From contig SUTA01000006.1 in assembly GCA_015063135.1 (NCBI GenBank), positions 1 to 64,000 of the forward strand: a stretch of 64,000 nucleotides of DNA, in the 5' to 3' direction. The stretch's first letter is position 1. The number at the start of each line of letters is the position of its first letter. The translations under genes and the position numbers were made by a program. This stretch comes from Thermoplasmata archaeon (lineage in GTDB: Archaea; Thermoplasmatota; Thermoplasmata; Methanomassiliicoccales; Methanomethylophilaceae). The notes beneath the pieces are model-generated. The model was not told where the DNA came from, made no database searches, and saw only the letters and a program-made list of their open reading frames with translations. Positions 3,164-62,031 of this stretch are shown one piece after another.

Positions 3164-3835
3164 ATGTCCATCGTGGAGGAGGCCATCGGGGAGAACGCGG
3201 GGAGGCGCACCGCCCTCATGCTGGCAGGCCTCGTCGTGATGGCCTACGGCACCGCCCTCTCCGCCCACGCGGGCCTGGGGGCCACGCCCATCTCCACCCT
3301 ACCGTTCGTCCTGTCCGAGGGGCTGCCCTTCTCCTTCGGCGCATGGGTCTTCATCTTCAACTCCGTGCTCCTCCTGGCGCAGATAGCCATCAGGCGCACG
3401 ATCGACGCCAACATAACCCTCCAGATCCCGGTCCTCATCCTGTTCAGCTTCATGTGCGACGTGGCCTACTGGACCACGGGGTTCGCCGAGGGCGAGACCT
3501 ATCTGGAATCATGGGTCATCACGCTGATCAGCATCGCGGTCATGGGCCTGGGCATCGCCCTCACCCTCAGGGGGAACGTGTCTTTCCGCCCGGCGGACGG
3601 GTTCACCGAGGCGGTGGCGATGCGCTTCCACGGGGACTACGGCACGTTCAAGCTGGTGATCGACATGTCCGTCATCCTGCTGGCGTGCATCGCATCCGTC
3701 TGCCTGTTCGGCGAGCTCTACGGCGTGAGGGAGGGCTCCATCGCGGCCATGCTCCTCACCGGCCCCGCGGAGAAGTTCATATCCAGGCACCTGGGGTTCG
3801 TGAACGGCTGGGCCGACGAGGACGCGCCGCTGCGA
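3164..3835 (+). CDS. YczE/YitT-like integral membrane protein
   Basis: 223-residue protein with five or six hydrophobic helices. The N-terminal LVVMAYGTALSAHAGLGATPISTLP pattern (helix, then Gly-Leu-Gly-Ala-x-P) is typical of the YczE/YyaS/YitT (DUF6198) family, whose transport function is unknown. It follows the MFS gene by 25 nt on the same strand. The frame reaches CGA at 3833-3835 after GCG CCG CTG. The following codons (AGT GCA GAA TAT GGT AGA) are unlike the gene, contain the TATA box of the next gene (CATTTTATCC, about 3863-3873) and end in TAG at 3877. I take CGA as the end. Confidence 0.75.
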
Positions 3836-17164: not shown

Positions 17165-18640
17165 TCATGCGAGCATCCACATGAGCCTGGAGACGGCCAT
17201 GCGGATCCTCATCATCACGGTCCTGGAGTCGTGCTCCTCGCAGGTGTACTGCGAGGACTTCTCCAGGTCCTCCAGGAACTGCCCCGCGACCTGCTCCGTG
17301 AGCCTCCTGGAGTAGAGGACGGTGTTGGTCTCGAAATTCAGGGTGAGGGACCTGTAATCTAGATTCGCGGACCCTATGGAGCAGCATCTGCCGTCGATCA
17401 CGATGGCCTTCTCGTGGATGAAGCCGTCATGGTAGCGGTAGACCTTTACCCCGGCCTTCATGAGCTCGTTGGCGAAGGTCAGGTTGTTCCAATAGAGGAA
17501 GATGTGGTCCTTCTTGTCCGGCATGAGTATCCTGACGTCCACTCCGGACTGCGCTGCATACATCAGGGCGGCCTTGGTGGACTCGTCGGGATCCAGGTAG
17601 GGGGTGGTGATGAACACCCTCTCCTTGGCGTTCTGGATCATCGCGAGGTACTGCATCGGGACCTGGTTGTTCGGCATGGTGTCGGGGCCGCCGGAGACCA
17701 GCTGCATTCTGTCCTGGCCAGGGTTGTCCCTGATGGCGGGGTCCAGGTACTCCCAGGTGTGGCGCAGCGGGTCCTTCTTCTCGGTGTACCTCCAATCCTC
17801 TGCGAAATTCATGTACATGGGGATGATCCCGTCGCCCACGACGCGGATGGAACCGTCCCTCCAATGTCCCAGGGGCCCCTCTCCCCTGTACTCGTCGCCG
17901 ATGTTGAACCCGCCGCAGAACGCGACCTTCCCGTCCACGATGGCGATCTTCCTGTGGTTGCGGTGGCTCTTCTTGGGGCTGAGGAACAGCTTGAGCCAGT
18001 AGTGGAATACCGCGTAGTGCCCGCCTGCCTTCTTGAACTCCTTGATGGCCTTGGTGGGTCCCTTCTTGATACCGAAGCCGTCGGCCATGAGGCGGACCTC
18101 CACCCCGTCCCTCACCTTGCCGGTGAGGATGTCCATCAGCTCGTTCCCGTCCTTGTCGTCACGGATGATGTAGTACTCGATCAGGATGGACCTCTCGGCA
18201 GCGCGCATGGCCTCGAACATGTCGTCCCTGAGCTCGGTGCCGTCGGTGTAGACCTTGATGTCGTTGTTCCTGGTGTAGGTGTCCGCACCTGCTTTGGCGA
18301 GGACGTTGGCTACCCACAGGGAGTCGCGGTAGTCCTCGGATTCGCGCATGTCCGCCTCCAGGTCCTCGCGTGACGTCTCGAGCTTGGACCTCCAGAACGA
18401 GGGGTCGTTGTAGACGCCGGTGTGCCAGTATGTGGTGCGCCCGAGGTACAGGTACAGTATGAACCCAACGGGGGGCACGAAGAGCAGCACTATGATCCAG
18501 GCGACGAAGGACCTGGGATCGCAGCGCTCCATGAACATCAGGATGATGATGAACACGATGTCCAGGATGACCAGGAGCATGACGAAGTCGGCTATGTAGT
18601 TGGTCCAACCCAGGAAATCGTCTATTATCTTCATCCTCAT
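17165..18640 (-). CDS. cls: Cardiolipin synthase-type phospholipase D, catalytically complete
   Basis: 491 residues, the normal length of a Cls. Two N-terminal transmembrane helices are followed by two PLD domains with intact HKD motifs: HRNHRKIAIVDGKVAFCGGFNIGDEY and HEKAIVIDGRCCSIGSANLDYRS. Expected to condense archaeal phosphatidylglycerol-type lipids into (glyco)cardiolipins, as shown for the archaeal Cls of Methanospirillum. A conventional ORF joins it to the upstream gene as one 934-residue protein, but the join is a single CGA (18644-18646), directly followed by GGG and ATG 18640 (or ATG 18634). I regard these as two genes with a stop/start overlap. TGA stop. Confidence 0.85.
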   Translation of the reverse strand: MRMKIIDDFLGWTNYIADFVMLLVILDIVFIIILMFMERCDPRSFVAWIIVLLFVPPVGFILYLYLGRTTYWHTGVYNDPSFWRSKLETSREDLEADMRESEDYRDSLWVANVLAKAGADTYTRNNDIKVYTDGTELRDDMFEAMRAAERSILIEYYIIRDDKDGNELMDILTGKVRDGVEVRLMADGFGIKKGPTKAIKEFKKAGGHYAVFHYWLKLFLSPKKSHRNHRKIAIVDGKVAFCGGFNIGDEYRGEGPLGHWRDGSIRVVGDGIIPMYMNFAEDWRYTEKKDPLRHTWEYLDPAIRDNPGQDRMQLVSGGPDTMPNNQVPMQYLAMIQNAKERVFITTPYLDPDESTKAALMYAAQSGVDVRILMPDKKDHIFLYWNNLTFANELMKAGVKVYRYHDGFIHEKAIVIDGRCCSIGSANLDYRSLTLNFETNTVLYSRRLTEQVAGQFLEDLEKSSQYTCEEHDSRTVMMRIRMAVSRLMWMLA

Positions 18641-18643
18641 CCC

Positions 18644-19969
18644 TCGGTTGAACAGCATCATGAACCTGGACAGGGCTATCTTGACCCTCTGCCCGAAGGT
18701 CCTCTCGCCATAATCGCCGGCTGCGAGCTCTTTCGAATGCGACATCAGCTCCTCGAGGCGCGACATCATCTGGGACGACAGCTCCTCTGAGTCCGCCACT
18801 ACGGATGTATGGAAGTCCTGGAGCATGGCCCTGCCGTTGAACGGCGCCATCCCCAGGGCGCAACGCCTGCCGTCCACGACCATCAGGCTGTCGGTGAACC
18901 TGTCGAGGCACATGAAAACCCTGACCCCGGAGTCCACCAGGGACGAGGAGGCCGAAGCGGTGTTCCAGCGCTGGTACCAGCGGATCCCGCGCACTGGCAC
19001 TATTACCTTGACCTCCACGCCGGACAGCGCGGAGAGCTTCAGGAAGTTGTAGACGTTCTCGTCCGGGACCAGGTACGGCTCGGACAAGACTATCGACCGC
19101 TCCGCGCCCTTGACCATGGACACGTACTCGGCCATGGAGGGGTTCAGGTCCTCCCCCAGGTCCGGCCCGGAGGAGACCACCTGCATGGTGATGTCCCCGG
19201 CCGGCTCCGCCGCAGGGACCTGCTCCGGCCTCCTGCCGACGGCGAACGACCAGTCGGCCAGGAAGCGGGCCTCCATCCTGGAGGCCACCGGCCCAGCGGT
19301 CCTGAGGACCGAATAATCGCCGGTGTACGCGACCCTGCCGTCCACCACCATCATGACGCGACGATTCCTGAAGCGGAACGTGGTGGCCACCAGGGCGAAA
19401 AACCTCCTGTGGAACGTCCTGAACTGCACGCCCGCGCTGTGCATGCGCCTGAGGTGCATGATGGTCCTCGGGAGGCCCCTCCCCATCAGGACCCTTATGT
19501 CGAGGCCCTGAGAGGCCTTCTCGCAGATCGCATCGACGAAAGGGGAGATGTCCTCCTGGGGGAGCCTGTAGATCTCGATATGCACCGACCTCTCCGCCTT
19601 GGAGAGGTCCGTCACGACGTCCCTGAGGGCCATGGACATATTCCCGTAGAAGCGGCCGTCGTTGCCGTCGGTGGGCAGGTCCGCGCCCCTGATGCGGGGG
19701 TCGTCCATTATGCCCATCTCCCTGTCGCCGCCGAACTTCCGGCCGAATATGCTTATGGAATAGAGGGTGCAGCCGTACACCAGGTACAGCGCGAACCCTA
19801 TGAACGGGAAGACTATGATTATGACTATCCAGAAGGCGAAGGACCTGGGGTCCATCTTCTCCTTGAAGATCAGCAGGAATATCGCTATGATATCTATTAC
19901 GACGACTAGCGGCAGGACGTCCCAGAAGAATTCAACCAGCGCGAAGAACGGCCGGGTGAAATAGGACAT
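18644..19969 (-). CDS. Cardiolipin synthase paralogue lacking both HKD catalytic motifs
   Basis: 441 residues. Same architecture as the downstream Cls: two transmembrane helices and two PLD-like domains. In domain 1 the HKD histidine is replaced (FRNRRVMMVVDGRVAYTGDYS). In domain 2 both His and Lys are missing (DRFTDSLMVVDGRRCALGMAPFNGR). It therefore cannot use the phosphohistidine mechanism. A regulatory or scaffolding partner of the active Cls is plausible. It starts 6 nt after aIF5B ends and is likely the fifth distal gene of the L7Ae operon. The frame ends with …MMLFN before CGA 18644-18646. Confidence 0.8.
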
Positions 19970-24108: not shown

Positions 24109-25581
24109 GTGGGTAAATTGCTGGTTCGCAATTTCACTTTCAAGGTCTCATCCCAGCTGCTGGCGGCGATAATGGCGTTCGTCTCACTGCTGGTTATGAT
24201 CAGGTACGTGGCGGACCAGTACGGGCTGATGATCTGGGCCCTCGCCCTGGTCACCCTGGTCAACACCGTGGCGGACCTGGGGTTCAACACGGCCAACCTG
24301 AAGTTCATCTCGAGGGAGGACCACGACCGCTCCGCCTGCTTCAGCACCTACATGGTCATCAAGCTGGCCCTGACCGGCGTGATGGTTCTGTGCACATTCA
24401 TCACCGTCTATTCCATGCGCCTGACCGGCGCCATCGACGACGAAGCGGTGAAGGTATGCCTCGTGTTCGTGATCTACCAGATCATCTCGAACGTCCAGTT
24501 CGCCATCTACTACACCCTCGACGGCATGAAGCTGAGCGGGAAGAGCTCCATACTCACCATCGTCGAGTGCGGGATCAGGAACGCGGTGCTCATAGGTATG
24601 GCGCTCTACGAGGTGAACGCGACCACCCTGGCCAACGCCTACGTCATCGCCACCACGATCTCGCTGTTCCTGAGCTTCTACATGGCGCACCAGGTCGGCC
24701 TGAGGCCGGTGAAGCCGAAATATCTCAGGGAGTACACCGTGTTCGCGCTGCCCCTGGCGGCCGCGCTGATCCTCACCGCCGTGGTCACGAACCTGGACAA
24801 GGTCATCGTCGGACTGTTCTACGAGAGCATCGAGGTCACGTACTACAGCACCGCCGTGGGCCTGATAGCGACCTTCACGGCCGTCGGGGTGTCGCTGAAC
24901 AACGTCCTGCTGCCCCACCTCTCATCGAGGAACATCATCAGGGACAGGGTCACCGAGCGCACCCTCTGGGGGCTCGAGAAGGGCCTGTGCATCCTGCTGC
25001 TGCCGTTCGTGGCGTTCTTCCTGGTCTTCGGCCCCCAGGTCGCCGAGACGCTGTTCGGCCCCGGTTTCAGCCCCAGCGGCGAGATGACCGCCATCCTGTC
25101 CATCCAGATCATCCCGTTCGTCATCGCCGGGATCATGACGCAGGTCCTCTACGCGATAAACAGGGGCATCTCCTACCTGAGGGCGTCCACGATCATGTGC
25201 ATCATCGCCGTCGGAGGGTTCCTGCTGCTGATCCCCAACACCACCATCCCCTTCAGCCAGGGATGGGGAGGCATGGGCGCCGCGGTCTCCGTCAGCGCCG
25301 CCTACATAGTCTTCTGCATCATCCTCTGCTGGATGGTCCGCAGGTACACCAACATCAGGCTCTACCCCAAGCTCTGGAGGGTCTTCATCGCGTTCGTGCT
25401 GAGCGCCCTCGCCCTGTGGGGGATCGGTCAGGTCGTGGATGTATCCGGCTTCCTATGGCTCGCGATCGTCGGATTCGCCTGCGAGGCCATCTTCATCGGC
25501 ATACTGATGGCCACCAAGGTGCTGAAGGTCAGCGAGATCAAGACCGTCCTCCGCATGTTCATAAAGGACGAGGACGACCGA
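24109..25581 (+). CDS. Oligosaccharide flippase (Wzx/MATE-like)
   Basis: 490 residues with about 14 transmembrane helices. The N-terminal RNFTFKVSSQLLAAIMAFVSLLVMIRYVADQYG pattern is typical of polysaccharide biosynthesis (Wzx) flippases of the MOP superfamily. It would move a lipid-linked glycan across the membrane. Start is GTG 24109, about 28 nt after the TATA box CCTTATTA; no ATG fits. First gene of the surface-glycan region. It ends at CGA 25579-25581, directly convergent with LicD. Two further codons lead to TAG 25590. Confidence 0.85.
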
Positions 25582-25582
25582 A

Positions 25583-26368
25583 TCGCTTAGGCAGATCGTT
25601 GCGGCACAGCCTCTTGTGCTTCACGATGCCGCTCTCGTCCTCGAGATAGTCCTCCAGGAGGCTGTACGGGAATCCCTGCGCCCCTCCCCTCTGATCCTCT
25701 GGCGGCGGCGTCATGTAGTCGCCGTAGAACTCGGTGAGGACCTTGTCGTAGTTGCATGGGACCGGGATCCTGGTGTCCTCGAAGTCGAACATGACGGGTT
25801 CCCCGAAATCGACCCTCTCCCACGAGTTGCCCATGATGTCCACCGCCCTGATGCAGATGCGGCTGGAATCCGGGGTGGATAGCATGCGGGTCATCTTGCG
25901 GGAAATGCGCATGATGCCGTAGAACAGGCCTCCGATGACCCTCCCGTGCTCCCTGATCATCTTGTGGGACAGTAGCTCGAACCCGATGAACGGGTACGAG
26001 AGCTTCCTGCGGATGCCGGAGTCGGGGTAGTCCAGGAGGAGGAAGATGTCGATGAAGGAGACCTTCCAGTCGGCCATGTCCTTCTCGAATTCGGGGGTCC
26101 TGATGACGACGTGGGGGTGGCTGTCCGCACTGGGGACGTGGTAGTAGTACACATCCTAATCCAGGTGCTTGCAGAGCGCCTCGTTGACCCTGTCGAGGTC
26201 GGCGCCGTAGACCGCAAGATCCAGGTCGTCGTCCCAGGGGATGATGCCGTTGTGCCTGACGGCCCCGATCGCGGTGCCGTACGCCGCGTAGTAGGTGATC
26301 CCCTCCTTCTCCAGGATAGCGGAGATGTCCTTGTACGCCTGCAGGAGCGCCGCGTGATTGTCGCTCAT
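25583..26368 (-). CDS. LicD-family phosphotransferase with one internal TAG codon
   Basis: 261 codons. GTAIGAVRHNGIIPWDDDLDLAV (about 31-53) is the LicD nucleotidyltransferase-fold signature, with the metal-binding Asp residues in WDDDLDL. Codon 71 is TAG (26156-26158) between CAC-CTG-GAT and GAT-GTG-TAC, and the frame and codon use continue unchanged for 190 codons. LicD proteins transfer phosphocholine or related groups from CDP/CMP donors to glycans. Next to PepM, Ppd and PntC the donor is probably CMP-2-aminoethylphosphonate. The frame ends at CGA 25583-25585, 1 nt from the flippase's CGA on the other strand; a TGA follows at 25559. Confidence 0.75.
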
Positions 26369-26401: not shown

Positions 26402-27682
26402 TTAGGCATTGGCGGAAGCGCAGCCGGCGAGACCCGCGCGGTAGATCTTGAGCAAGTGCCAGAGCAGGATGATCGTGGCGACCCCCTTGAGCGCATCGGC
26501 CAGGATGTACACGACACTGATGTGGTCGGTGGCATCCTGCATGCAGAGGACGGTCAGCAGGGACGCGGCGCAGAGGAACACTATGTAGTGGAGCATGCGC
26601 CCCCTGTCCACCCCCAGCTTTGTGCAGGCCCAGACCATCAGCGGGTACAGGATCGCGACCCACATCACGTACTGGGCGCAGAATACCTTGTTGAAGGCCA
26701 TGAACAGCATCAGCGTGATCGCGCAGGCCAGGACGGTGAGCGCGAAGGTCCTCTCCCAGTCCGGGCGGAGCTTCCACATCTTCACCAGGAAGTGCAGCAT
26801 GAACAGCAGCATTATGCCGAACGTGAGCGGCATGATGTACGGCGCCACGCCCTCGGCCACCGGGCCGAACAGGTCCCAAGACTCGTCCATGCCGACGTAC
26901 ACCAGGCTGGGGTCGATCAGCCCGATTATCATCAACGGCACCGCGAACAAGCTCTCTATCTCGACGCCCCTCCCGGAATGCTGGGTCAGGTAGCTGAAAG
27001 CGGTGGACGGGTCGGCAATCAGGAACGGCAGCTCGATGACGAAGCAGACGCCCGCGCATACGATGCCGAAGAGGAAGAAGTGCTTCCAGTCCCTCTGCGC
27101 GAAGAACGGTATCAGCAGCACCGGCAGCAGGAATATCGGGTAGATCTTGGTCATGATGCCCAGCGCCAGCAGCACGAAGGCCACTGCGAACTTCCTCTCG
27201 GAGTAGAACAGGATGCAAAGAAGGACGAACACCGTGGTGATGGTGTCGTTCCTGGCGATGAGGAAGTTGTTCAGGCCCAGGATCAGCAGCAGGAAGGTGA
27301 TGTAGACGTACTTGTGGTCCACCCCGCGCCTGTCGCAGAACTTGAACGTGAAGTGTATCGCGATGATCGTGAACAGGTACGTGAACATCGCGAACGAGTA
27401 ATGGAACCCGGTCTCGCTGGACAGGAAGAAGTACGGTATCAGGTAGATGACGAACGAGAAGGGAGGATAGGCCGTGTCGAAGTCCTGGTAAGGCATCAGC
27501 CCGTCCATGATGTCGCGTGCGTGCTCCCAGTAGAAGTAGACGTCGTACCAGGCGTAGTTGTTGCCGACGACGCCGTTCATGACGTCGGACAGGCCTATGA
27601 CGAACAGGTAGAGCGCGGTGTAGACGATGTAGAACCTGATGTCAGGCTCCTGCAGCTTCCTCCTGAACCCGTCCGCGTCCAC
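26402..27682 (-). CDS. Polytopic membrane glycosyltransferase (GT-C type)
   Basis: 426 residues with about ten transmembrane helices and the first-loop pattern YDVYFYWEHARDIMDGLMPYQDFDTAYPP, typical of DUF2029/GT87-like lipid-dependent mannosyltransferases with an early Asp. Start GTG 27682 follows GAGGGGAT within the end of pntC. Conventional translation fuses it to PntC, but the two are separated by CGA at 27692-27694. It probably adds sugars from a polyprenyl-phosphate donor outside the membrane. TAA stop. Confidence 0.75.
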   Translation of the reverse strand: MDADGFRRKLQEPDIRFYIVYTALYLFVIGLSDVMNGVVGNNYAWYDVYFYWEHARDIMDGLMPYQDFDTAYPPFSFVIYLIPYFFLSSETGFHYSFAMFTYLFTIIAIHFTFKFCDRRGVDHKYVYITFLLLILGLNNFLIARNDTITTVFVLLCILFYSERKFAVAFVLLALGIMTKIYPIFLLPVLLIPFFAQRDWKHFFLFGIVCAGVCFVIELPFLIADPSTAFSYLTQHSGRGVEIESLFAVPLMIIGLIDPSLVYVGMDESWDLFGPVAEGVAPYIMPLTFGIMLLFMLHFLVKMWKLRPDWERTFALTVLACAITLMLFMAFNKVFCAQYVMWVAILYPLMVWACTKLGVDRGRMLHYIVFLCAASLLTVLCMQDATDHISVVYILADALKGVATIILLWHLLKIYRAGLAGCASANA

Positions 27683-27691
27683 GCGATCCCC

Positions 27692-29515
27692 TCGCAGCGT
27701 CTTCATGTACTGGCCCAGGAGGACGGTGAACCTCTCCATCTCCTCCGGGCGGATGTCGCCGATGTTGGCGATCCTGAACGTCTTCGCGTCGCTGAGCTTG
27801 CCCGGGTAGATGGTGAACCCGTACTCCCTCGAAAGGTCGTGCATCTCGTCGAAGCTGTACCTGGGGCTCTCCGGGTCCATGAACGTGACGATGAGATGGG
27901 ACTGCTCCGACTCCGGGACGGCCATCCTCAGCCCGATCCTCTTCGCCGCGGCGACGAGGACCTCCCAGCACGCGGTGTACCTGGCGTACCTCCCCTCGAT
28001 GGTCTCTATCTTCGTCTCGAGAATCGCCTGCCTGAGGGCGTAGGCGGTCTGGACGGGGGGCGTGAAGCGCATCTGGTTCTTGTCCTTGTAGTACTTGTGC
28101 TGGTCGTAGACGTTCAGGTAGTAGTTGCGCATCGGATAGTCCTTGATGGCCTCCAGCGCCTCCTTCCTGCAGAAGACGAAAGCCAGACCTGCCATCCCCT
28201 GGATGTTCTTGTTGGAGGTGCTGGACATGAAGTCGATGCAGTCGCGGTCCATGTCGATGGGGATGGCTGCGAACGCGCTGACCGCATCGACGATCGTGAC
28301 TATGCCGTGCTCGCGGCAGAACCTGCAGACCTCCGGGACGGGGTTGAGTATCCCGGTGGTGGTCTCGTGGTAGACGATGGCCATGTGGGTGAACTTCCCG
28401 TCGACCAGCTCCTTCTCCAGGGCCGGGACGTCAATGCGGCTCACGCCATCCGATTTGAACGTGGCGTAATCGATGCCGTAGATGCCGGCCATCTTGGCCA
28501 TGCGCTTCCCGTATGCCCCGTTATCGACGATCAGTAGCTTCCCGTCCTGCGGGACGCAGGAGGAGATCATCGCCTCGTCGGCCGCCGTGCCGGATCCCCC
28601 GAACAGGACTGTCTCCACCCTGCCGGGTTCCCCGACCATGAGCGACAGCTCCCCGGAGATCCATCCCATGACGTCCCCGAACTCGTTCTCCCTGGGGCAG
28701 ATGTCCGCCTGGACCTGCGCGTACTTCACGCTGTCCGTGGTGGTCGCCGGGCCGGGGTTCAGGAGCACCTCGCGGCGGATGCCGCGGATGTCCTCGTTCT
28801 CCGCGATGCGTGGGTAGACCTGCTCCACGGCCCTCTTCAGATGGCTCTCGTCGTCGATCTCGCACCACGTGTAGTACTCGACCTTGCGAACGGCTATGCC
28901 GTTCCCGGCGCAGGACACCGCCTGCATGGCGGCCTCGTACTCCATCTTGGGGTTGCCCTGCCTCCGGATCTCCTCGGCCATCAGGTCCAGGGTCTCCTTC
29001 CTAAGCTTGGTGATTCCGACGAGCTCGGAGTATACCGAATCCAGCTGGTCGGCGTGCTTGGACTGCCTCACCAGGCTGCCCTGCGAGTCCACCTGCAGCC
29101 AGACCTCGTCCCCCGAGCCGGTCCTGCCCGACGACAGGATCACGTCCCTGCGGGGGTCGTTGATCAGGACATGGAGGCCTATGGAGTCGTACAGCAGGTC
29201 CGATTCCAGGAGGAGGAAGTCCCCTTTGACCAGCGGGGCGCAGGCGGCCAGGGTCGCCATGCTCCCCGTGCTGGCGTAATCAGCGTTGTGGGCCAGCCTG
29301 ATGCACGGGTACCTCCCCGCCAGCTCCTGGTACCACTCGGCGTGGTAGCCGGTGCCGATGATTATCTCCTCGACGCCCGCCGCTATTAGCTTCTCGATCG
29401 ACTGGACGATTATCGGCTTGCCGCCGACCTCCAGGAAGCCCTTCGGCATGTCCTTCGTCCTGCTCCCGAGCCTGGAACCCAGGCCCCCTGCCATGATGAC
29501 CGCCTGCGCTATCAT
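27692..29515 (-). CDS. pntC: Bifunctional 2-aminoethylphosphonate cytidylyltransferase / aminotransferase
   Basis: 607 residues. Residues 1-240: nucleotidyltransferase with GGLGSRLGSRTKDMPKGFLEVGGKP and an acidic metal site (LLESDLLYD). Residues 250-600: class V aminotransferase with PLP lysine in STSNKNIQG and the N-terminal LLNPGPAT of AEP:pyruvate transaminases. The order and length match PntC of Treponema, which makes 2-aminoethylphosphonate and activates it to CMP-AEP. It lies 4 nt from ppd. No CGA occurs at the internal junction, so this fusion is genuine. The end is CGA 27692-27694 inside the Shine-Dalgarno of the next gene. Confidence 0.9.
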
Positions 29516-30642: not shown

Positions 30643-31947
30643 TCGCCTCAGGTCCGGGATCAGGGTGAGGATCTCCTTGATGGGCATGCACATCTCGTTG
30701 GCCTCCAGGGACCTCTCGTTCTCCAGGATGCAGTTCGCGACCTTCACCATGGCGGGGTAGGAGGCCCTCAGCATATGGTTGGCGTAGATGATGATGTTGG
30801 CGCCCCAGTCCTGGAGCTCCTTCTCCTTGAACTGGTTGTACGTGGTGGGCACCAGTACTATGGGCACCTTGGGGTACTCCTTCCTGAACCTGGTGCAGAA
30901 CTCCTTGATGTCCATCCCGGACTTCTCCTTGCTGTGGATCATAACGCCGTCCGCTCCGGCCGCGATGTACGCCCTGGCGCGCTCCAGCGCCTCGTCCACG
31001 GAGTGCCCTGCAATGATGCTCTCCAGGCGGGCGATGATCATGAACTCCTTGGTGACCTGGGCGTTCTTCCCGGCGCGGATCTTCTCGCAGAAGTCCTCCA
31101 CGGGGGCCAGGGTCTGCTCCACATCGGTTCCGAAGAGGGAGTTCCTCTTGAGGCCCATCTTGTCCTCGATGATGACCGCGGATATCCCGTTGCGCTCGAG
31201 GGTGCGCACGGTGAACACGAAGTGCTCCGGCCTGCCGCCGGTGTCCCCGTCGTAGATCAGGGGCTTGGTGGTGCACTCCAGGATGTTGGCCAGGTCCTGC
31301 ATGCGGGTGGTGAGGTCCACCGCCTCGATGTCGGGCTTGCCCTTGCTGGTGGAATCGGTGAGGCTGGAGGACCACATGCCGTCGAAGTAGTGCAGGCCGT
31401 CCTCCTTCTCGATCTCGGCATGCTCCACGATGAGTCCGGAGATCCCCGAGTGGACCTCCATGATCCTGATCAGCGGCTTGGCCTCCACCAGCCTCCTGAG
31501 GGCCATGAGCCTCAGCTCGGGGGTGGTGCCGAACTCGCGCCTGTTGGTGCTGATCACGGACGAGTTGATGCCGTGGGTGTACGGGACGTCGACGACCTCC
31601 CCTCCCCACTCCTTCAGTATCTCCGCCGTCCTAGTCCTCACGGGGCTGAGGGAGTTGCTGACCCAATCGTCCCCGTGGACAACGTACCTGGGCTTGTACT
31701 CCCTGAGGTTGTCCTCGCCGCACCAGTCGTCCTGGGGGACCACCCTGGACACTCCCTTGATGCTCTTTATGATGACCTCCCTCTGCTCGTACGTGAGGTA
31801 AGGGGGGTGCTCCCTGGAGACTATGGCCCTGTCGGTCAGGAGGCCGACCATGACCTCCCCCAGCTTGCAGGCCTCGGCGATTATGTTCAGGTTCCCGGGG
31901 TGGACGACATCCCCGACCATGGTGACGTAAGCAAGTTGCGATTCCAT
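30643..31947 (-). CDS. pepM: Phosphoenolpyruvate mutase with N-terminal cytidylyltransferase-like domain
   Basis: 434 residues. N-terminal 150 residues resemble cytidylyltransferases (MVGDVVHPGNLNII…VGLLTD), with HPGN in place of the usual HxGH, so activity is uncertain. The C-terminal PEP mutase has the diagnostic IEDKMGLKRNS (EDK-x5-NS) and DGDTGG metal site. It rearranges PEP to phosphonopyruvate, the entry step of phosphonate synthesis. The frame ends with …LIPDLR before CGA 30643-30645. The conventional ORF would continue 175 codons out of frame through ppd to TAA 30115. Confidence 0.92.
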
Positions 31948-32081: not shown

Positions 32082-33380
32082 TTGAGGTCGTGGAGCGAAT
32101 TGGACAGCGTCCAGAGGTGGGAGGTCATCCTGTCCGCGGGCCTGGCCGTCGCGTTCGCCTGCTACTTCGCCGTGATATTCCTCACGAACCTGGACACCGA
32201 GGTGAACCTCTATCGCTGGCAGAACGCGGAGGACCTCTGGAGCGGGAATGTCCCGATCATGGAGTATCCCCCGCTGGCACTCCTGTTCTTCGCGATCCCG
32301 CGCATCTTCGCGGACACCCCCATGGGCTACAACCTCTTCTACGTCGCCGAGACCTACGTGTTCACCATCGTCGGCCTCTTCCTGGTCCGCCGGATCGCCG
32401 AGCGCCTGGGAGCGAACCAGATCAGGGCGATGACGGCCTATGCCGTCCTGATGCTGATGTTCCTCCAGTTCGTGGCCGACCGCTACGACATCTTCCCGGC
32501 GGTCCTGACCATCGCATCCTTCTACTTCCTGCTCGAGAAGAAGTACCACTGGGCCTTCATCATCCTCGCCGTGGCGACGCTGACCAAGCTGTACCCGGCC
32601 ATGTTCTTCCCGATATTCCTCGTCCCGCTCCTGCTGGACAGGGACTGGAGGGGCGCGTTCACGGGCTTCGCGCTGTACGCCGCAGTGGGCGCGGCGGTCG
32701 TCGGCGTGTGCTGGGCCATCGACCCGGAGCTCATCCTGAACTTCCTACACTACCACTCCGACCGCCCCCTGGAGATAGGGTGCGTGGCGGCCACGCTCAT
32801 CTACCCGTTCTCCATGCTCGGCCTGACCGACACGTGGATCCTGCCCGCCACCGACCCCGGCAGCTTCGGCTCCGACGACCTCATGGGGGCGGTGCCGGAC
32901 GCCGTCGCCCCGCTGCTGACACCGCTCATGGTGGGCGTGGTAATTGCCTGCATCGCGTACTACTGGCTGATAAGGAAACACGCAGGGGAGACCGACGACA
33001 GGGTTGTCCTCATCCTGGGCGCGGCGATATGCGTGATGCTGGCGTTCATGATATTCGGGAAGGTGTTCTCCTCCCAGTACCTCATATGGGTGGTCCCGTT
33101 CGTCGCGCTCATAGTGGCGGTTTCTCCCGACGAGCAGTTCGACAAGCGCCTGCTCTGGCTCTTCATAGCCATGTTCGCGCTGACCCAGGTCAACTTCGCC
33201 TACATCTACGGCTTCCTCGGCGGCGGGACCAGCATCAACGACATCACCATGATCTCTATGCTCGTCCGCAACCTGATGGTCATCGGGGCCATAGTCCTCG
33301 TGCTGAAGGAGATGGGACGCATATCCAGGGACTACACTGGGCGCCTGCTGCCCAGGATAGTCAAGCCGCACGGCGAGCGA
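32082..33380 (+). CDS. Polytopic membrane glycosyltransferase (DUF2029/GT87-like)
   Basis: 432 residues, about ten transmembrane helices. Early loop LYRWQNAEDLWSGNVPIMEYPPLALLFFAIPR is the GT-C first-loop pattern with acidic residue and YPP. Likely a polyprenyl-phosphate-sugar dependent transferase of the glycan region. It starts at TTG 32082; no ATG fits. It is divergent from pepM. The frame ends at CGA 33378-33380 (…KPHGE). The next codons contain a TATA box and run into the separate coiled-coil gene, which conventional translation would fuse on. Confidence 0.75.
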
Positions 33381-37745: not shown

Positions 37746-38195
37746 ATGGGCCTCGTGAAGGATCTGATGCAGACGCACCGCGAGGCCATAGCCTATGTTT
37801 TCTTCGGCGGCCTCACCACGCTTTTCACCTGGGGGTCCTATTCGCTGTTCACCTACCTCGGATGGGGCATGAACCCGTCCAACATCCTGTCGTGGGTGTG
37901 CGGGGTGAACTTCGCCTTCGTGGTGAACAAATGGTACGTCTTCCAGAGCAGGTCCCTCAAGAAGGGCAGGATCGCCAAGGAGTACACATCCTTCATCGGC
38001 TCCAGGATCCTGACCGGCGTCGTCGCCTGGGTGCTGTTCCCCATACTGCTCTGGATGGGGCTGGACTTCAGGTTCCTCAGCATCGACGGATTCGTCGCCA
38101 AGATAATCGTCAGCATCGTTGAGATAGTGCTGAACTGGGTGCTGAGCAAGTACTTCGTCTTCAAGATGAGGGAAGAGCTGAACAACGAGATCCGA
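37746..38195 (+). CDS. gtrA: GtrA-family membrane protein
   Basis: 149 residues, four helices, with YVFFGGLTTLFTWG and NFAFVVNKWYVFQ, both typical of GtrA. These proteins are thought to flip undecaprenyl- or dolichyl-phosphate sugars. Convergent with a GT2 polyprenol-phosphate sugar synthase, the usual partner. The frame ends …EELNNEI before CGA 38193-38195; TGA follows at 38216. Confidence 0.85.
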
Positions 38196-38196
38196 A

Positions 38197-38934
38197 TCGG
38201 ACGTCGATGTGCTTGACCTTGGCGTAGACCTTGGCGAGCGCGCGGCCCACGCATCCGCACTGGTGGAAGGTGGTGTAGACGACCTTGTTGCTGATGTGCG
38301 ACTCGCCTACCTCCCTCTTGTTGAAGATATAGTGCACGCTGGTGATCTTCAGGTCCCTGGGGCCGAACTTCAGGAGATCGAGCAGAACCTTCCAGCCCTG
38401 CATCTCGAGCTGGTCCCAGTTGTCCTTGATGACGGGGATGAAGACGTCGGTCCTTCCCGCGATGAGGCCGCTCATGACGTCCTTGGAGATGGGCTTCCTG
38501 TGCCACATGAGGAACAGGTCGGCGAAGATGGTGAACACCCAGGAGCCTGCCCAGCGGGTGAATCCCATGGCGGTCCTGTCGTCCCTGGTCCCGATGCAGA
38601 GGTCGCAGCCCTTCTCCATCTCCTCGTACATGCCCTTGAGGACCTCCGGCGGGTGCTGGAAGTCGCAGTCGAAGGTCATGAAGTAGTCGGTGCCGCACTC
38701 GAGGATGCCCTGGAAGACACTGGCCGCGAGGCCCCTCTCCTCTGGCTTCCTGACGATCATGATGGTTAGGGGATCGTTGAGCGCATCGATCAGCTCCTTG
38801 GAGCGGTCGGTGGAGTTGTCGTCCATGAACATGACCTTGAAGTCGGGGTACATCTCCCTGAGGGTCTTCGCCATGTTCACTACGTTGTTCTCCTCGTTGA
38901 GGGTGGGGATGACGACTGTGCATGTTCCGGGCAT
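38197..38934 (-). CDS. GT2 polyprenyl/dolichyl-phosphate sugar synthase (DPM1-like)
   Basis: 245 residues. VVIPTLNEENNV (nucleotide-binding start), MDDNSTDRS and FDCDFQHPPE (DXD) are the GT2 DPM1/GtrB signatures. No C-terminal membrane helices, so it is a soluble/peripheral enzyme. It supplies lipid-linked sugar to the GT-C transferases nearby. The frame ends …VKHIDV before CGA 38197-38199, separated by one base from the gtrA CGA on the other strand; TGA follows at 38161. Confidence 0.85.
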
Positions 38935-42995: not shown

Positions 42996-43619
42996 ATGAA
43001 GCTAGTCTCCCTGATGTCCAACGGGATCGACTCCCCCGTGGCCTCGTACATCATGAGCCGCGCAGGCGCCGATGTCATTCTGCTCCACATGGACAACCGC
43101 CCGTTCACGGACGACCGCTCCATGGAGAACGTGAGGGCCCTCGCCGAGAAACTTAGGGAGGCCACCGGCAAGGACATCCCCTTATACTCCGCCCCCCACG
43201 GGGAAAACCAGAAGGCAATCTCCGAGGGCTGCGACTCCAACTACCAGTGCGTGATGTGCAAGATCGTCATGCAGAGGACGGCGGTGGAGCTGGCCAAGAG
43301 GCTCGGGGCCTCCGGCGTCATCATGGGCGACTCCCTGGGACAGGTCGCATCGCAGACCCTCAGGAACATCCGCGCCGAGAGCATAGGGCTGGACCTCCCC
43401 ATCGTGAGACCGCTCATAGGCATGGACAAGACCGAGATCGTGAGCCTCGCCAGGGAGATCGGGACCTTCGACATCTCCATCCGCCCCACGGACGGGTGCC
43501 TGGCGCTGCCCCCGAAGGTCGTCGTCGACGCCGATCCCGAGAAGAGCCACGATTTCATGCAGGCCATCGACGTCAGGGCGCTGGCCAAGCGCACCGCGGA
43601 TGCCGCGGTGCTCCTGCGA
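42996..43619 (+). CDS. ThiI-like PP-loop sulfurtransferase/adenylase domain protein
   Basis: 207 residues. LMSNGIDSPVASYIMSRAG is the ThiI PP-loop (usually SGGIDSPVA; Asn replaces the first Gly here), and CVMCKIVMQRTA plus MGDSLGQVASQTL are the ThiI-type continuation. The THUMP and NFLD domains of full ThiI are absent, so it is a stand-alone adenylation/thiolation domain, perhaps for tRNA s4U8 or thiazole synthesis. Follows csl4 by 3 nt. The frame ends …ADAAVLL before CGA 43617-43619; a TGA at 43637 follows and lies within the next operator. Confidence 0.8.
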
Positions 43620-43676: not shown

Positions 43677-44168
43677 ATGGCTTATGGATCCAACAACTCC
43701 GGCATGGCAGTGGTCCTCGTAGGCCTCATGCTGATAGGGTCTCTGGCATTCTTCCTCTTCGCCCAGACCTGGACGTCCCTCAATCCCGATCCTGCGGAGG
43801 ACCCCCACGAGTACGCGGTGACTGGTACCATCGGCGGCGAGGTGTGCACCGGGGCCGGGAGCTCCGAGTACAGGCACGAATCCTCCAACGTGTACACCTA
43901 CCAGTTCGTCTACGAGGTCTCATCCCCCTCCCAGACCGTCAAGGGGGATTTCGGCCTCATATGCGATAGGGACGGCACCCCCATCTCCGACCTGTACACC
44001 TATGTCGGGAGCGGCGAGATCGACGGCACACCTGTGACCGTATGGAAATGGTCGGAGCACGGCAAGGATTACAGAATCTGGATAGCCTCCGAGTGCAAGG
44101 TCATGGAGTTTCTGGTCCAGGGCGGGGATCTGGACATCCGCGGGGACCTTCTCGCAGAGGGCAGCCGA
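43677..44168 (+). CDS. Small membrane-anchored extracytoplasmic protein, unknown function
   Basis: 163 residues. One N-terminal transmembrane helix (AVVLVGLMLIGSLAFFLFAQ), then a beta-rich outer domain (YTYQFVYEVSS…TPVTVWKWSEHGKDYRIWIASECKVMEFLVQGG). No family recognised. It lies directly before the first ABC importer and shares its operator, so a part in the same uptake function is inferred. The frame ends …LLAEGS before CGA 44166-44168; what follows is T-rich and includes the next promoter, to TAG 44243. Confidence 0.6.
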
Positions 44169-44273: not shown

Positions 44274-45713
44274 ATGGGTTGGGGCAAGATAGCAGCCGTC
44301 CTGGCATCAGCCGTCGTAATAGCCGTAACGGCCGCCGCCCTCATGGGGAGCAGCTTCGAGGCCGAGACGGAAGGCGATCTCAACAAGTCCGCCCTGGATT
44401 CCTATCTGAAAAACCAATACGACAACGCGGACAGCTACCCGACCCGCCTGTTGATCCTCGGCAATGCCGACATGGACGATGACTTGGACGAGGACGATAT
44501 GGCCCTCATCGAGCTCACCGCATCCGCTCAGTACGACTACGTCTCGAGCTACTTCTGCGATGCCAACTACGACGGGGTCATCGACTCCCTGGACGCGGAC
44601 ATGGTGCGCGAGCTCATGGACCTGGACTACGCCGGGACCGTGAACTACCTCAACTGCGACTTCAAGATACGCAGCTACGACATGGGCATGCCGCTCAGGA
44701 CCTCGAACATCCTCACCCAGACCCTCGAGATGCTCTGCGTCCTCTGCCCCGAGTCCGTCGTAGCCGTGGACGACAGGTGCTCCGAGACCGGCATACAGGG
44801 CCAGTACTGGAAGGAGTTCGCATCCGTCCTGGATTACGGCAAGATGGGGCATGTGGGCTCCCACAAGGCCCCCAGCGCCGAGAAGTACCTGATGGTCGCC
44901 AAGGAGTACGGCGACGGGTACCTGACCGCGGTCATGAACTCCGAGTACGCGCAGAGCACCGGATACATGGAGAAGCAGCTGTCCAACACCACCGTGCAGA
45001 TCGTCCGCATCCCCTCCTGGGAGAGGGGAGGCATCTGCTGCGGGATGCTCACCCTCGGCTACATGTTCCACAGCTACGGGACGGCCGTGGACTGGGTCGC
45101 ATGGCACGACAGCTACTACGATGACATAATGGACAGGGTGTCCAAGCTGGCCGACGACCAGAGGAAGAAGGCGGTCGTATCGGTCCTGGGCGACACCGAC
45201 ATCTCTAGCCTGGACAAGTTCCAGATCAATTTCACGACCTCCGGGGAATACCAGAACCTGGTCCGCATGGGCGTCATCGACGTGGGCGGGCAGTACCTGA
45301 GAGACAAGGGCCTGGCCGGGGCCCAGTGGGAGGTCGAGATCAGCAGGGAGAGCTTCATCGCGATGTACACCGACTACGGCATCGACTGCCTCATAGGCAC
45401 CATCCCGGGGCCGTACAACGTCTCCCCCCTGAACCCCAAGAACCCCTCGGCTCAGGACAACTACGTCAAGGTCGAGAAGTTCCTGGACGACTACTGCGGC
45501 GGAATACCCCTGCAGGTCATCGGCTGGGAGTACGCCACCGGGCCGATGGAGATAACCTACCTGGCGATGCTGGCCGGGGCCCTCTACGGATGGGAGTACG
45601 ACATAGAGTCGATGGTCAACGAGGGGCTGCAATGGATGCACGTCTACGGCACAGGGGAGGGCCAGTGGACGTACGAGACGATCAAGGATACCTTCCTGTG
45701 CCCGGTGCTCCGA
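44274..45713 (+). CDS. ABC importer substrate-binding protein with dockerin-like EF-hand module
   Basis: 479 residues. Signal/anchor helix (IAAVLASAVVIAVTAAALM), then a dockerin-like pair of Ca-binding repeats, LGNADMDDDLDEDDMALIE and DANYDGVIDSLDADMVRELM, then a BtuF/FepB-like binding domain. The two downstream genes are its FecCD-type permease and ATPase. Ligand may be an iron chelate, haem or corrinoid; sequence does not decide. Fusion of a dockerin-like module to a binding protein is unusual. It is preceded by the palindromic operator. The frame ends …FLCPVL before CGA 45711-45713; TGA 45728 follows five codons later. Confidence 0.8.
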
Positions 45714-47725: not shown

Positions 47726-47995
47726 TCGGTAGTACCTGCGGGGATAGAATGCAGGGCAGGAGTCGATCTCCTCCTGGTCGTAGACCATGTCGATTGTGAC
47801 CCTGCTGATGTACATGGACTGCACGCGGGAGATGTACAGGAAATGATCGCCCACCGGAATCTTGATGTCGCTCTCCTTCGGGGGCTTGACCGATGTCGGG
47901 ACGAGGGCGGGGCCCATACAGGCGGTGCAGACTCTGTAGTCGCAGCCCTGCTCGATGATGAGCTTCTTCACATCGTCGTCCACGGTGATTTCCAT
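47726..47995 (-). CDS. Small conserved-looking protein, function unknown
   Basis: 89 residues, soluble, with one CxxC (CTACMGPAL) and alternating basic/hydrophobic strands (DIKIPVGDHFLYISRVQSMYISRVTIDMVY). ATG 47995 is chosen because a strong TATA (TTTTATATAC, about 48016-48025) gives a leaderless start; an upstream GTG at 48061 would place the promoter inside the gene. No family recognised. The frame ends …RRYY before CGA 47726-47728, then AAC CGC CGA TAG. It lies between the two importers and diverges from the second. Confidence 0.6.
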
Positions 47996-51740: not shown

Positions 51741-52238
51741 ATGGACGCGGAGATTTGGTTCAGCGATATTATCGGGAGGAACGTTGCAGGGGAGCCTCTG
51801 GAGCCGGCTCGCGAATGGGTCTCCGGGGACTGCCGCACCGTCATAGACGGGCACACGGTCCGCGTCTACATGCGCGACAGGGTCCAGATCTTCGCCGTCA
51901 GGAGGCCGGAGGAGCTGGCCCGCAGGCTGGACCTCGGCGAGGTCCCCGAGGACCGCTGGAGGGACGAGGAGGGCAACCGCGTGTGCTACGGCAACGCCGT
52001 GCCCTACGGCCCCGACGGGCAGCCCTACACCTGGGGCATGGTGATCGGCAACGTGGACGGCGTGGAGAAGGCCGAGTGCTTCGAGACGGAGCAGGAGGCC
52101 AAGGGCGCCGGCGCGGAGGCTTGGGAGTCCATGTCCGAGGACGAGAAGAGGCCCAGGTACCTGCTGGTGGGCCTCATCGACCCCAGGTTCATGATAAGCA
52201 AGTCCCTCGAGCCCATGTGGTGGCCCGGAACATTCCGA
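51741..52238 (+). CDS. Hypothetical soluble protein
   Basis: 165 residues, acidic, rich in Trp, Arg and Glu, no signal peptide or membrane helix. Segments such as NAVPYGPDGQPYTWGMVIG and FETEQEAKGAGAEAWESM suggest a compact alpha/beta protein, with no family recognised. A TTTATATC element at 51722-51729 lies close before ATG 51741. The frame ends …MWWPGTF before CGA 52236-52238, directly facing the CGA of the convergent helicase; TGA 52367 would follow. Confidence 0.55.
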
Positions 52239-52239
52239 T

Positions 52240-54111
52240 TCGCCCTGAGAAGAAAGCCCTCACGGCTGCCGGGATGTCGTCGCAAGCTTCTGCGTCCACA
52301 TCCGGCAGCACGTGCACCCTCTTGTCGAAGATCGCCGCGACGCCGCGGTCGGTCTCCGACCTTATGAGCCTGCCCATGGCCTGGCGCATCTTCCTGGATG
52401 CCGGGATGTACACCGTGTACAGCGTGCCGTCGCCGGTCATGTGGTCGTAATAGCGCTGCATCGCCCTGGCCTTCGCCGTCGGCTTGGGGAACGGTATCCC
52501 GATGAGCACCGCGAGCTCCAGCGTCTTGTCGGGGAAGTCCAATCCCTCGCTGATCCTCCCGCCCGTCACGCAGAACAGCACGCCGCCCTCCGACATCCTG
52601 AACCTCTCGAAGGCGTCCATCAGCTCCGCCTGCTGCATGCCCCTGCGCTCGTAGAAGATCTCCCTGCTCAGGCGCTCCTCCAGGCCGTCCGCGATCATCC
52701 TGTCCATCATCTGATAGGACGGGAAGAACACGGCGGTGTTGACCCTCACCGCGTTCACCGTTCCCACGACACCGTCCATGAGCATGCGGTAGTTCTCCTC
52801 GAGGAACCTCTCGTCGTACTTCATGGTGACCTTGTCGCAGTACAGCTTCAGCAGGTTGCCCACGGGGAACTGCGATGTCATCATCAGCTTGGCGGGATCC
52901 TCCACGCCGAGCTCCCTCGCGTACTCGTCGAGGGGCGCGAGCGTGCCGGACATCAGCACGGCGGAGCGGCAGTCCCTCAACGGGCCGGCTGCGCCGGACG
53001 GGTCCATGCAGTAGGTCTGCAGCTTGTGGTTGCCCTCCTCGCCCACGATGAGCTGCACATAGGTCAGCTCGTCGGCCATGGACCAGAAGTTCAGGAAAGC
53101 GGCCAGGTGGCCGACGTATGTCCGGGGCAGCTTCCTCCTCGCCTTGCGCTTCTCCTCCACCATGGACCCGAAGTCCTCCATGGCCTTGCAGATCCTCCTG
53201 ATGGCGATGGACGACACTCCGAGGCGGGTCATCAGCTCGTCCTCCAGGAAGTATGGCGGCAGGAGGCCGTCGTCGTCCATGAGATACTCCTTCCCTGCGT
53301 AGCGGATGATCTCCTCCACCACGGCTATCACATCGGTGAGCTTGATGTCCTCGTGCATGTCGGGGTCGCCGTACTCCCTCGCCTCCTTGTCGGCGCGGGC
53401 CAGCGAGCGCATGCCGAGCTCGGCGGTCTGGACGTCCCTGAGGTAGTCGGGGAGGTTGTGGGCCTCGTCCACCACGAGGACGGTCCTGGACAGGGGCGTC
53501 CCGGTCCACTGAACGAAGTGGTCGAGGATCTGCGGGATGAACACGAACGGGTACGGGGCGCATATGACGTCGGCCTTGGGCAACAGGAGCTTCTGCAGCT
53601 CGTAGGGGCACACCCCCTCGGCCTCGCACCTGTCCGCGAACTCCTCGGGCCCCAGGTGCTCCGTGCGGATGACCGACTCCCAGCGGTCGAGGTCGGCCGT
53701 CTCGACGTTGTCGAAGAACGAGCAGTGCCTGCAGCCGTTGGAGTCGCGCTTCTTGTACTCGGAGCAGAGCTTCGATATCTCCTCTGGCGTCCCCGATGAG
53801 AGCTCCGGATCGTCCCTCATCAGCGGGCACGACACCGAGGACCTGCCCTGTATCGCCACGCACAGCACATCGGCCTTGATCGCGGCGCACTCCCTGACGA
53901 TCTGCTTCTGCTGCGATTTGGTCCTGGTGAGGTACACGACCTTGCACCCGGACTCCATGGCGCACGGCAGCGTGCCGCACAGGGATGTTATGGTCTTGCC
54001 GGTCCCGGTCCCCGCCTCCACGACGGCGCGCCGGGATTCCCGGACCGAACGGTCCAGGAACCCGACCAGCTCGCGCTGGCCGGGCCTGTACTGGTATGGG
54101 AAGATGTCCAT
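52240..54111 (-). CDS. XPD/Rad3-family (DinG-like) Fe-S DNA helicase
   Basis: 623 residues. YQYRPGQREL, Walker A EAGTGTGKT (about 33-41), a cysteine group for the [4Fe-4S] cluster (CPLM…CSEYKKRDSNGCRHC…CEAEGVCPY), motif II VVDEAHNL, and the C-terminal motifs GGRISEGLDF and QAMGRLIR. 5'-3' helicase for repair. The ATG (54111) overlaps by one base the CGA that ends the upstream gene (CGATGG). The frame ends …FFSG before CGA 52240-52242; TGA follows at 52189. Confidence 0.92.
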
Positions 54112-54503
54112 CGCTGGTCTTCGCCGCCCCTGCGCCAGATGTCGTCGGGGAGGTCGTCGTAGACGGACGCCTCCTCGGCCTCCTGGACGGGGGCCTCCTC
54201 CCTCTCCTCGAGGAGCTTGTTGATCCTCTCCCTCCTGAACAGCCAGTAGTGGATCCTCCACTCCCTGCCGTCGTAGAGGGTGGTCTCCTCCCTCTCGGTG
54301 GTGAGGATGCCGGCGTCCTCCAACATGTAGAAGGCGTCCCTGTCCTCGGGCTCCAGGACGTTGTCGATGATCCTGTCGGAGTACCCGAAGAAGTTCAGGA
54401 CGTGGTGCGCCAGCATGTGCGCCTCCTCCTCGGCCATGTCGCGGCTCTCGTCGATGCCGTTCCTTATGGCCAGGGACAGGCTGTCCACGGTGATTATTCC
54501 CAT
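54111..54503 (-). CDS. DUF6015-type protein of Thermoplasmata
   Basis: 130 residues, alpha-helical, starting MGIITVDSLSLAIRNGIDESRDMAEEEAHMLA and including LEDAGILTTEREETTLYDGREWRIHYW, a winged-helix-like end. I recognise it as the DUF6015 kind restricted to Thermoplasmata; function unknown. It ends …RRGGEDQ before CGA 54111-54113, whose A starts the helicase ATG, the classic stop/start overlap (TGATG elsewhere). The conventional ORF would run 40 more codons, out of frame, to 53988. Confidence 0.75.
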
Positions 54504-60481: not shown

Positions 60482-61309
60482 ATGGATGGCGATACCCCCG
60501 CGACTTTGGACGACGTTGCATTCGTCGCCTGCGGCGGCGGCGCCAGGGCGCTCATCAACGATGCCGAGGACCGCCTCTACGCCGTCCCCGCCATCATCGA
60601 CTCCGTCGACAGCGACGTCCCGCTGGAGGGGGGCCCCGACGGCCCCCACTGGGACGAGAACATCGCATACGGCGTGGTCTCCGCGAACGCGGAAGCCGTG
60701 TCGAAGCTGTTCAAGGGGCGCAGGATCGCCCTGGTCTACTCCGAGATCGGAGGGGGCACCGCATCCGGCATGACGCCCGCGATAATCGAATGCGCCAGAT
60801 CCTCCGGCTGCAAGGTCGTCTCGGTGGTCAGCCTCCCCATGGAGTTCGAGGAGGCCCGCAGGGAGAGAGCCCTCAGGGTGCTCCCCGAGATCGTGGGGAA
60901 ATCCGACAGGACCTTCATCATGGACAGAGAGTCCCTCAACCGCCGCCCCCACCTCAAGGCCGTCAACCTGATGCAGATGACCATGCGCACCATGGTGTTC
61001 GTCATCAACAGCCTGCGCGAGCAATTAGAGGGGCCGTTCTTCAGCACGTTCTCCCAGGGCGCCTACACCTTCTCCTACCTGTCCAGCGACGACCCGGCGG
61101 AGATAGTGGAGGCGGCCGAGTCCACGGTGTTCGCCACGGACCCCAACGAGGGCAAGCTGATAATCCTGACCGGGTCCGGCTACGAGCTCGCCAAGCGCGA
61201 GCAGGTCCGCGACGCGGTCGTCGCCCAGAGCGGGATCCTCCCGGAGATCATCGCCAGGGGTGACCCCGACGACACCAAGTTCCTGGTCTACGCCTCGGTG
61301 AAGCTCCGA
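60482..61309 (+). CDS. Divergent FtsZ/tubulin-like protein
   Basis: 275 residues. ALVYSEIGGGTASGMTPAIIECAR holds a tubulin/FtsZ G-box (GGGTASG for GGGTG[ST]G), but the first glycine loop is reduced to VACGGGARALI and the synergy-loop region is not obvious. GTP binding is plausible, polymerisation uncertain. Separate from the normal FtsZ expected in the genome. The frame ends …VYASVKL before CGA 61307-61309. The conventional ORF adds 120 residues antisense to the convergent methyltransferase, to 61672. Confidence 0.72.
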
Positions 61310-61311
61310 GG

Positions 61312-62031
61312 TCGCTTCTTCTCCCAGGCCTTCCCGTACTTGATGATCTTCGACGCATCGCCGAAGACGCCCATGATGGTGTTGTACTCGTACTTGGTCG
61401 GGATCGCGCGGCCCATCATGCGCCTGAACATGACCGTGGTCATCTCGCGCCTGTTGTTCGGATACTCTATCGCGTCCAGCAGGTCGCCGAAGAAGTCGAA
61501 GAGCAGCGCCTTCTCGTGCGTGTCCGCGGGCTCGGGCCTGCGGGGGGTGTCCTCCGCCATGAAGAACTCGTACATCACGGTGTGCGCGGCGTGGGAGAGG
61601 TTCATGACCGGGTACTCGGCGCAGGTGGGTATGTGGATCAGCACGTCGCACATGTTGATCTCGTTCTGGTAGAGGCCGGTGTCCTCCCTCCCGAACACGA
61701 CGGCCACCTTCTCCGGGTAGCCCCTGCAGGAGTAGGCGAAGTCCCTCACGGAGACGGGGACCCTCGAGTAGTTCCTGTCGCCCTGGGTGGTGATCCCGCT
61801 GGTGCCGGCCACCAGGAAGCAGCCCTCCACGGCCTGCTCCAGCGTGTCCACGACGTGCACGTCGTCCAGGATGTCGGACCCGTGCTTCGCCCTGCGGTAC
61901 GCATCGTCGCCCAGCTCGCAGGGGCTCACGAGGTAGAGCTCCCTGAGCCCGAAGTTCGCCATGGACCTGGCTATTGCTCCGACATTGCCCTCGTACTTGG
62001 GGCCTACGACCACGATGCGTATCTCGGTCAT
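61312..62031 (-). CDS. trmJ: TrmJ-type SPOUT RNA methyltransferase
   Basis: 239 residues. IRIVVVGPKYEGNVGAIARSMANFGLRELYLV is the SPOUT N-terminus, VFGREDTGL motif 2 and NLSHAAHTVMYEF the SAM-binding knot. Probably 2'-O-methylates tRNA position 32, as TrmJ does. The frame ends …KAWEKK before CGA 61312-61314, facing the CGA of the FtsZ-like gene; next stop is TAG 61288. Confidence 0.87.

Follow-up and report, generated by a model that had tools for sequence, protein, structure and literature searches.

The window analysed here is a 64,000-nt stretch of a Thermoplasmata genome (assembly of 1.86 Mb in 40 contigs, 87% complete; labelled G000) from a genus within the Methanomethylophilaceae. On its minus strand a gene for a DUF6015 protein runs into a gene for an XPD helicase:

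54111..54503, minus strand: DUF6015 gene, from ATG at 54503 to a predicted stop CGA at 54113-54111 (Pfam PF19479 at 54105-54494)
54109..54113, minus strand: CGATG overlap of the DUF6015 CGA and the XPD ATG
52240..54111, minus strand: XPD helicase gene by frame reading, from ATG at 54111 to a predicted stop CGA at 52242-52240

The DUF6015 protein reads ...PDDIWRRGGEDQ-CGA (EDQ-CGA) at its minus-strand C-terminus, and the XPD ATG (54111-54109) begins with the final A of this CGA (junction CAG-CGATGG), so the overlap reported in the preliminary description was confirmed in the sequence. If the CGA were not a stop, the DUF6015 frame would extend into XPD by ∼40 codons whose sequence is unrelated. 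Beyond its own CGA the XPD frame has 17 non-homologous codons; XPD homologues from congeners finish within 6 residues of the CGA end. Comparison of the gene pair in these relatives showed the conserved DUF6015 tail PDDIWxRGG followed at the same point by TGA or TAA, with an exact TGATGG overlap (GAG-TGATGG) in congeners G019 and G030. The earlier proposal that ribosomes terminate at the DUF6015 CGA is strongly supported on comparative grounds, and CGA marks gene ends throughout the genome (see below). Synthesis of DUF6015 would then be finished at 54109-54113, and the geometry of the overlap suggests that translation may restart at the XPD AUG in the manner of a UGAUG junction.

To locate gene ends independently of stop codons, we trained a six-frame model of codon usage that gave no score to TAA, TAG, TGA or CGA, making it blind to all four. 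The model decoded the window and 21 further stretches, in total 450 kb or 24% of the G000 genome. Gene ends in the window comprised 26 CGA and 23 TGA codons; occurrence of CGA at gene ends is far beyond chance. Besides the two genes above, the following features of the window bear on CGA:

18644..19969, minus strand: first cls (cardiolipin synthase) gene, predicted stop CGA at 18646-18644
17165..18640, minus strand: second cls gene, stop TGA, in frame with the first cls (TIGR04265, full length)
27692..29515, minus strand: nucleotidyltransferase/AEP transaminase gene, predicted stop CGA at 27694-27692 (TIGR03301)
26402..27682, minus strand: glycosyltransferase (GT87-like) gene, GTG at 27682
30643..30645, minus strand: predicted stop CGA, 4 nt before the ppd ATG (30638)
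25579..25585: convergent gene pair with facing predicted CGA stops, CGA-A-TCG
38193..38199: convergent gene pair with predicted CGA stops, CGA-A-TCG
52236..52242: predicted CGA stops of convergent XPD (minus strand) and the 51741 gene (plus strand), CGA-T-TCG
61307..61314: convergent gene pair with predicted CGA stops, CGA-GG-TCG
11550..11552, plus strand: predicted stop CGA of an Lhr-type helicase gene (ATG 8805)
1793..1795, plus strand: CGA gene end (stop-blind model)
3833..3835, plus strand: CGA gene end (stop-blind model; a homologue also ends there)
6214..6216, minus strand: CGA gene end (stop-blind model)
33378..33380, plus strand: CGA gene end (stop-blind model)
43617..43619, plus strand: CGA gene end; homology halts at the CGA
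44166..44168, plus strand: CGA gene end
45711..45713, plus strand: CGA gene end
47726..47728, minus strand: CGA gene end; a homologue, 73% identical, ends at the same residue
51553..51555, plus strand: CGA gene end

The ATGA overlaps at 5305, 34544 and 36248-36245 (minus strand), as well as the CGA codons 4 nt upstream of ppd (30645-30643), 9 nt before the glycosyltransferase GTG and 3 nt before the second cls (ATG 18640), were all found as previously described. Under the standard code both cls genes fall into one ORF with two PLDc_N domains; the glycosyltransferase is fused in frame to the AEP transaminase only if CGA is a sense codon. Near-palindromic shared stops of the form CGA(N)TCG were seen between convergent genes at 25579, 38193, 52236 and 61307 of the window, at 8678 of L061 and in other places. 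Abutting convergent genes have CGATCG in G000, TGATCA in G014, and CGATCG or the hybrid CGATCA in G021.

Across the 375 coding stretches of the 450-kb sample, the first terminator met at the 3′ end was TGA in 176 cases, CGA in 167, TAA in 17 and TAG in 3. (The near absence of TAG, 3 of ∼360 ends, is in keeping with the use of pyrrolysine in this order.) Within six codons of the model end we counted 135 CGA and 137 TGA, compared with 36 CGG and 21 CGT as controls; the distance-to-end distribution had a sharp peak for CGA, as for TGA, while the controls were spread with no peak. Eight codons (CGG, CGT, AGA, TCA, CCA, GGA, CAA and TGT) were tried as sham terminators and none gave a comparable peak. 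Within genes CGA is as rare as a true stop (0.28 per 1000 versus 0.36 for TGA). The ∼34 CGA codons interior to model-called coding stretches all resemble junctions of two same-frame genes, and none was spanned by genuine homology.

Homologues with at least 35% identity from CGA-poor congeners were available for 34 CGA-ended genes. The homologue ended at the CGA in 25 of the 34 and the alignment stopped short in eight; in the remaining one (L069) an apparent run-through of homology past the CGA was in fact a different downstream gene. In one example, a homologue 85% identical over 884 residues ends 2 residues before the CGA, where read-through would add 148. Curated full-length models also end just before CGA: TFS (100/101), (d)CMP kinase (168/169) and AEP transaminase (353/355). 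Reading CGA through would fuse TFS with PCNA, (d)CMP kinase with Cbf5, and the two cardiolipin synthases with each other.

Could CGA be an ordinary rare Arg codon, the proteins being longer or fused and the junctions coincidental? The standard code assigns CGA to Arg, and other genera of the Methanomethylophilaceae use it inside genes. In G000, however, the peak of CGA at gene ends equals that of TGA and is missing for CGG, CGT and AGA, full-length models and homologues end at CGA, and none of 1,301 conserved Arg columns contains CGA. The end peak, the homologue ends and the interior census rule this reading out, leaving it a negligible probability. We consider it nearly certain, judging from these sequence comparisons, that CGA works as a stop codon in the G000 genome.

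C-to-U editing of mRNA, turning CGA into UGA before translation, would also agree with the presence of CGA where congeners have TGA, and CGA-to-UGA editing occurs in plant organelles. We know of no C-to-U editing of archaeal mRNA. Hundreds of genes would need to be edited. The only context shared by the sequences around CGA stops consists of third-position composition and the CGAT that comes with overlaps and palindromes. Editing would, moreover, leave the tRNA loss and release factor changes described below unaccounted for, and we regard it as very improbable.

Among 43 tRNA genes detected in G000 are those for tRNA-Arg with anticodons GCG, CCG, TCT and CCT. A gene for tRNA-Arg(UCG) was not found by tRNA reading and pattern searches in the genome, although at 87% completeness a gap could hide one tRNA; such a gene was found in ∼18 relatives. 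If tRNA-Arg(UCG) is missing, CGA should have no elongator tRNA that decodes it well. Its loss is not required for CGA ends, since intact-looking tRNA-Arg(UCG) genes were present in G001, G002 (by pattern only), G021, G008 and G004 despite their CGA ends. In G021 and G008 this tRNA (L182 14317-14390 and L186 287-360) has U32/C38 in its anticodon loop, most others having C32/A38.

CGA ends are unevenly spread in the genus, which is probably UBA71 as a UBA71 record matches G028 in sequence around the aRF1 CGA site discussed below. A profile scan with aRF1 recovered named relatives; one for close relatives with XPD gave none. The share of CGA among gene ends is 53% in G002, 34% in G021, 33% in G001, 24% in G008, 21% in G026 and 18% in G004, and perhaps 11-12% in G029 and G018, several of these samples being small. 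In G014, G020, G027 and G028 it does not differ from the controls, and it approaches zero in a clade of nine genomes with lower GC (G003, G007, G009, G012, G013, G019, G023, G025 and G030), which also apparently lack tRNA-Arg(UCG); in G030, of whose 43 tRNAs 30 were read, a pattern search found no TCG tRNA. In a tree of six proteins and aRF1, G000 is the earliest branch of the genus, and G004, G008 and G021 form a separate clade. In G021, T follows 67% of the CGA ends and A follows 2%, partly owing to CGATG overlaps and CGATCG palindromes.

The single aRF1 of G000 has 400 residues, three of them unique in comparison with 78 relatives. Two of the three, K69N and N70H (numbered as in human eRF1 from an alignment), come directly after the NIKS motif and may bear on codon recognition; otherwise NIKS, YxCxxxF and GGQ are canonical. 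Sites of eRF1 proposed to govern stop recognition include G31 and S70 (PMC4698671). The CGA users G021 and G008 carry G31S, and G001 has K63R within NIKS; G001 was picked for sampling by its K63R and then showed its 33% of CGA ends. In G006 (L331, L340-L344) aRF1 likewise has NIRS (K63R), yet no CGA enrichment at gene ends was seen, so K63R alone is insufficient. A single aRF1 change shared by all CGA users was sought and there is none: the lineages each differ. The link between aRF1 substitutions and CGA use, drawn from sequence comparison, is suggestive. The aRF1 gene of G000 itself (L131, G000:C35) ends in a CGA overlapping the next ATG (CGATG); the gene downstream of it looks like argS.

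A different possibility is that CGA is simply unassigned, so that ribosomes stall for want of a cognate tRNA and are rescued by a Pelota/ABCE1-type system, with no reading by aRF1. The missing tRNA-Arg(UCG) gene, the mostly canonical motifs of G000 aRF1 and the weaker aRF1-family matches of aPelota type present in nearly all genomes would agree with this. But CGA stands at about half of the gene ends, including that of the aRF1 gene, and a stall at each would be costly. Furthermore, congeners with tRNA-Arg(UCG) also have CGA ends, lower-G+C congeners lacking it do not, and unusual aRF1 residues go with CGA use. We find this explanation unlikely. The CGG codon of Mycoplasma capricolum is unassigned, avoided and not a gene end; CGA in G000 resembles it in being avoided in genes and having no cognate tRNA, but differs in being used, at 167 gene ends in 450 kb.

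Direct reading of CGA by aRF1 is the mechanism we prefer, and we think it probable, because CGA and UGA differ in the first base alone, because only YGA is affected and not CAA, and because aRF1 changes accompany CGA use. (CAA is not a stop in G000, and the Gln tRNA for CAA is retained.) In full, we propose with high confidence that CGA changed from Arg to stop, probably in three steps, leaving gene ends as UGA or CGA and rarely UAA. First, CGA would have nearly vanished from gene interiors throughout the genus, tRNA-Arg(UCG) being missing in G000. Second, aRF1 would have come to tolerate a first-base C where UGA has U, making the stops effectively YGA. Third, G+C pressure would have converted many UGA stops to CGA.

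In alignments of the genus covering 350,000 codons and ∼13,000 conserved arginines, the conserved Arg columns contained AGG 7336 times, CGC 3803, AGA 1039, CGT 725, CGG 142 and CGA only 7 times. The seventh of these CGAs (in G016) was rejected as a sense codon, as it sits after a TGA; the other six are one and the same codon of aRF1. This codon, the R of IDSIA[AS]-R-LKT at about codon 80, is CGA in 25 of the 26 congeners checked, including those without tRNA-Arg(UCG), in the context NCT-CGA-CTN (e.g. L119 of G014, L128 of G021 and L144 of G030). Elsewhere in the order the codon varies, and eight of 51 further aRF1 sequences have CGA there. The base after the internal CGA is C in 23 of 23 cases, versus 12-14% after CGA at gene ends. 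No +1 frameshift is needed at this site, the frame being in register with homologues that have no CGA, and consensus folding showed nothing special in the way of RNA structure around it. G000, the first branch of the genus in the tree, has CGC here and lacks both the internal CGA and tRNA-Arg(UCG). G030 and eight related genomes retain the aRF1 CGA, although they appear to use CGA neither as a sense codon nor as a stop.

The internal CGA of the relatives may serve as an RF2-like feedback valve in the zero frame, a reading of the sequence to which we give about even weight. Ample aRF1 would halt its own synthesis at the CGA; when aRF1 is scarce, the CGA would instead be decoded by tRNA-Arg or by a near-cognate tRNA. 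The wider statement, that CGA is a fourth stop genus-wide read by aRF1 and in addition a zero-frame valve in the aRF1 gene, we hold to be evenly balanced. In RF2 genes a stop-like codon followed by C is conserved across a clade, 3′ C making termination weak (PMC5009743); the aRF1 CGA of the relatives is similar in being a stop-like codon followed by C, conserved in a clade and located in a release factor gene. Autoregulation of RF2 differs in using +1 frameshifting, the aRF1 CGA being read in the zero frame. According to a review, no RF2 or RF1 gene is known to have the zero-frame arrangement (PMC5009743). If the proposal is true, the valve would represent a simple self-sensing stop of the kind that was once envisaged for RF2 and never found.

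Changes of sense codons to stops have been described in organelles: UCA/UCG and UUR in green-algal mitochondria (PMC6821328), UUA/UCA in peDinoflagellate plastids (PMC12574857) and, as a further case, AGA/AGG in vertebrate mitochondria. The plastid case was presented in 2025 as the first outside mitochondria (PMC12574857). As in these organelles, the codon in G000 is gone from gene interiors and stands at gene ends, and the cognate tRNA is missing (PMC6821328, PMC12574857). A release factor altered in parallel is part of the organelle cases, and K69N/N70H of G000 aRF1 may be a counterpart. The organelle systems have few genes and bacterial-type release factors, whereas G000 is a cellular archaeon with an Arg codon affected and an omnipotent factor of the eRF1 type.

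Among the 2,309 archaea that it covered, the Codetta survey reported no sense change; by its own statement, new stop codons are undetectable to it (PMC8629427). The bacterial reassignments of CGA, CGG and AGG that it described also involve Arg codons, including CGA, but there the codon becomes another amino acid, and the CGA/CGG cases are from low-GC genomes (PMC8629427). Pyrrolysine at UAG in Methanomassiliicoccales belongs to the same order as G000, with the change in the opposite direction, a stop gaining an amino acid. A search of open-access full texts turned up neither CGA used as a stop nor a sense-to-stop change of any kind in a cellular genome, though priority is uncertain. CGA in G000 looks like the first sense codon seen to act as a normal stop outside mitochondria and plastids. 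As far as we could find, described cellular genomes use only UAA, UAG and UGA as stops, and outside organelles stops were lost, never gained.

A gut methanogen with about half of its genes ending in an Arg codon would mean that a genome close to 2 Mb in size can turn a sense codon into a stop. The genus offers a graded natural series, from 0 to ∼50% CGA stops, in which tRNA-loss-first and release-factor-first orders of events could be compared, and the CGA users point to aRF1 residues that may set first-base specificity. Standard-code gene callers and Codetta would miss CGA stops, so annotations in this genus probably contain proteins that are wrongly extended or fused. Finally, candidate tRNAs with introns were noted in L029 and at 1148-1319 of L015 (a Met-type tRNA with CAT, and Trp).
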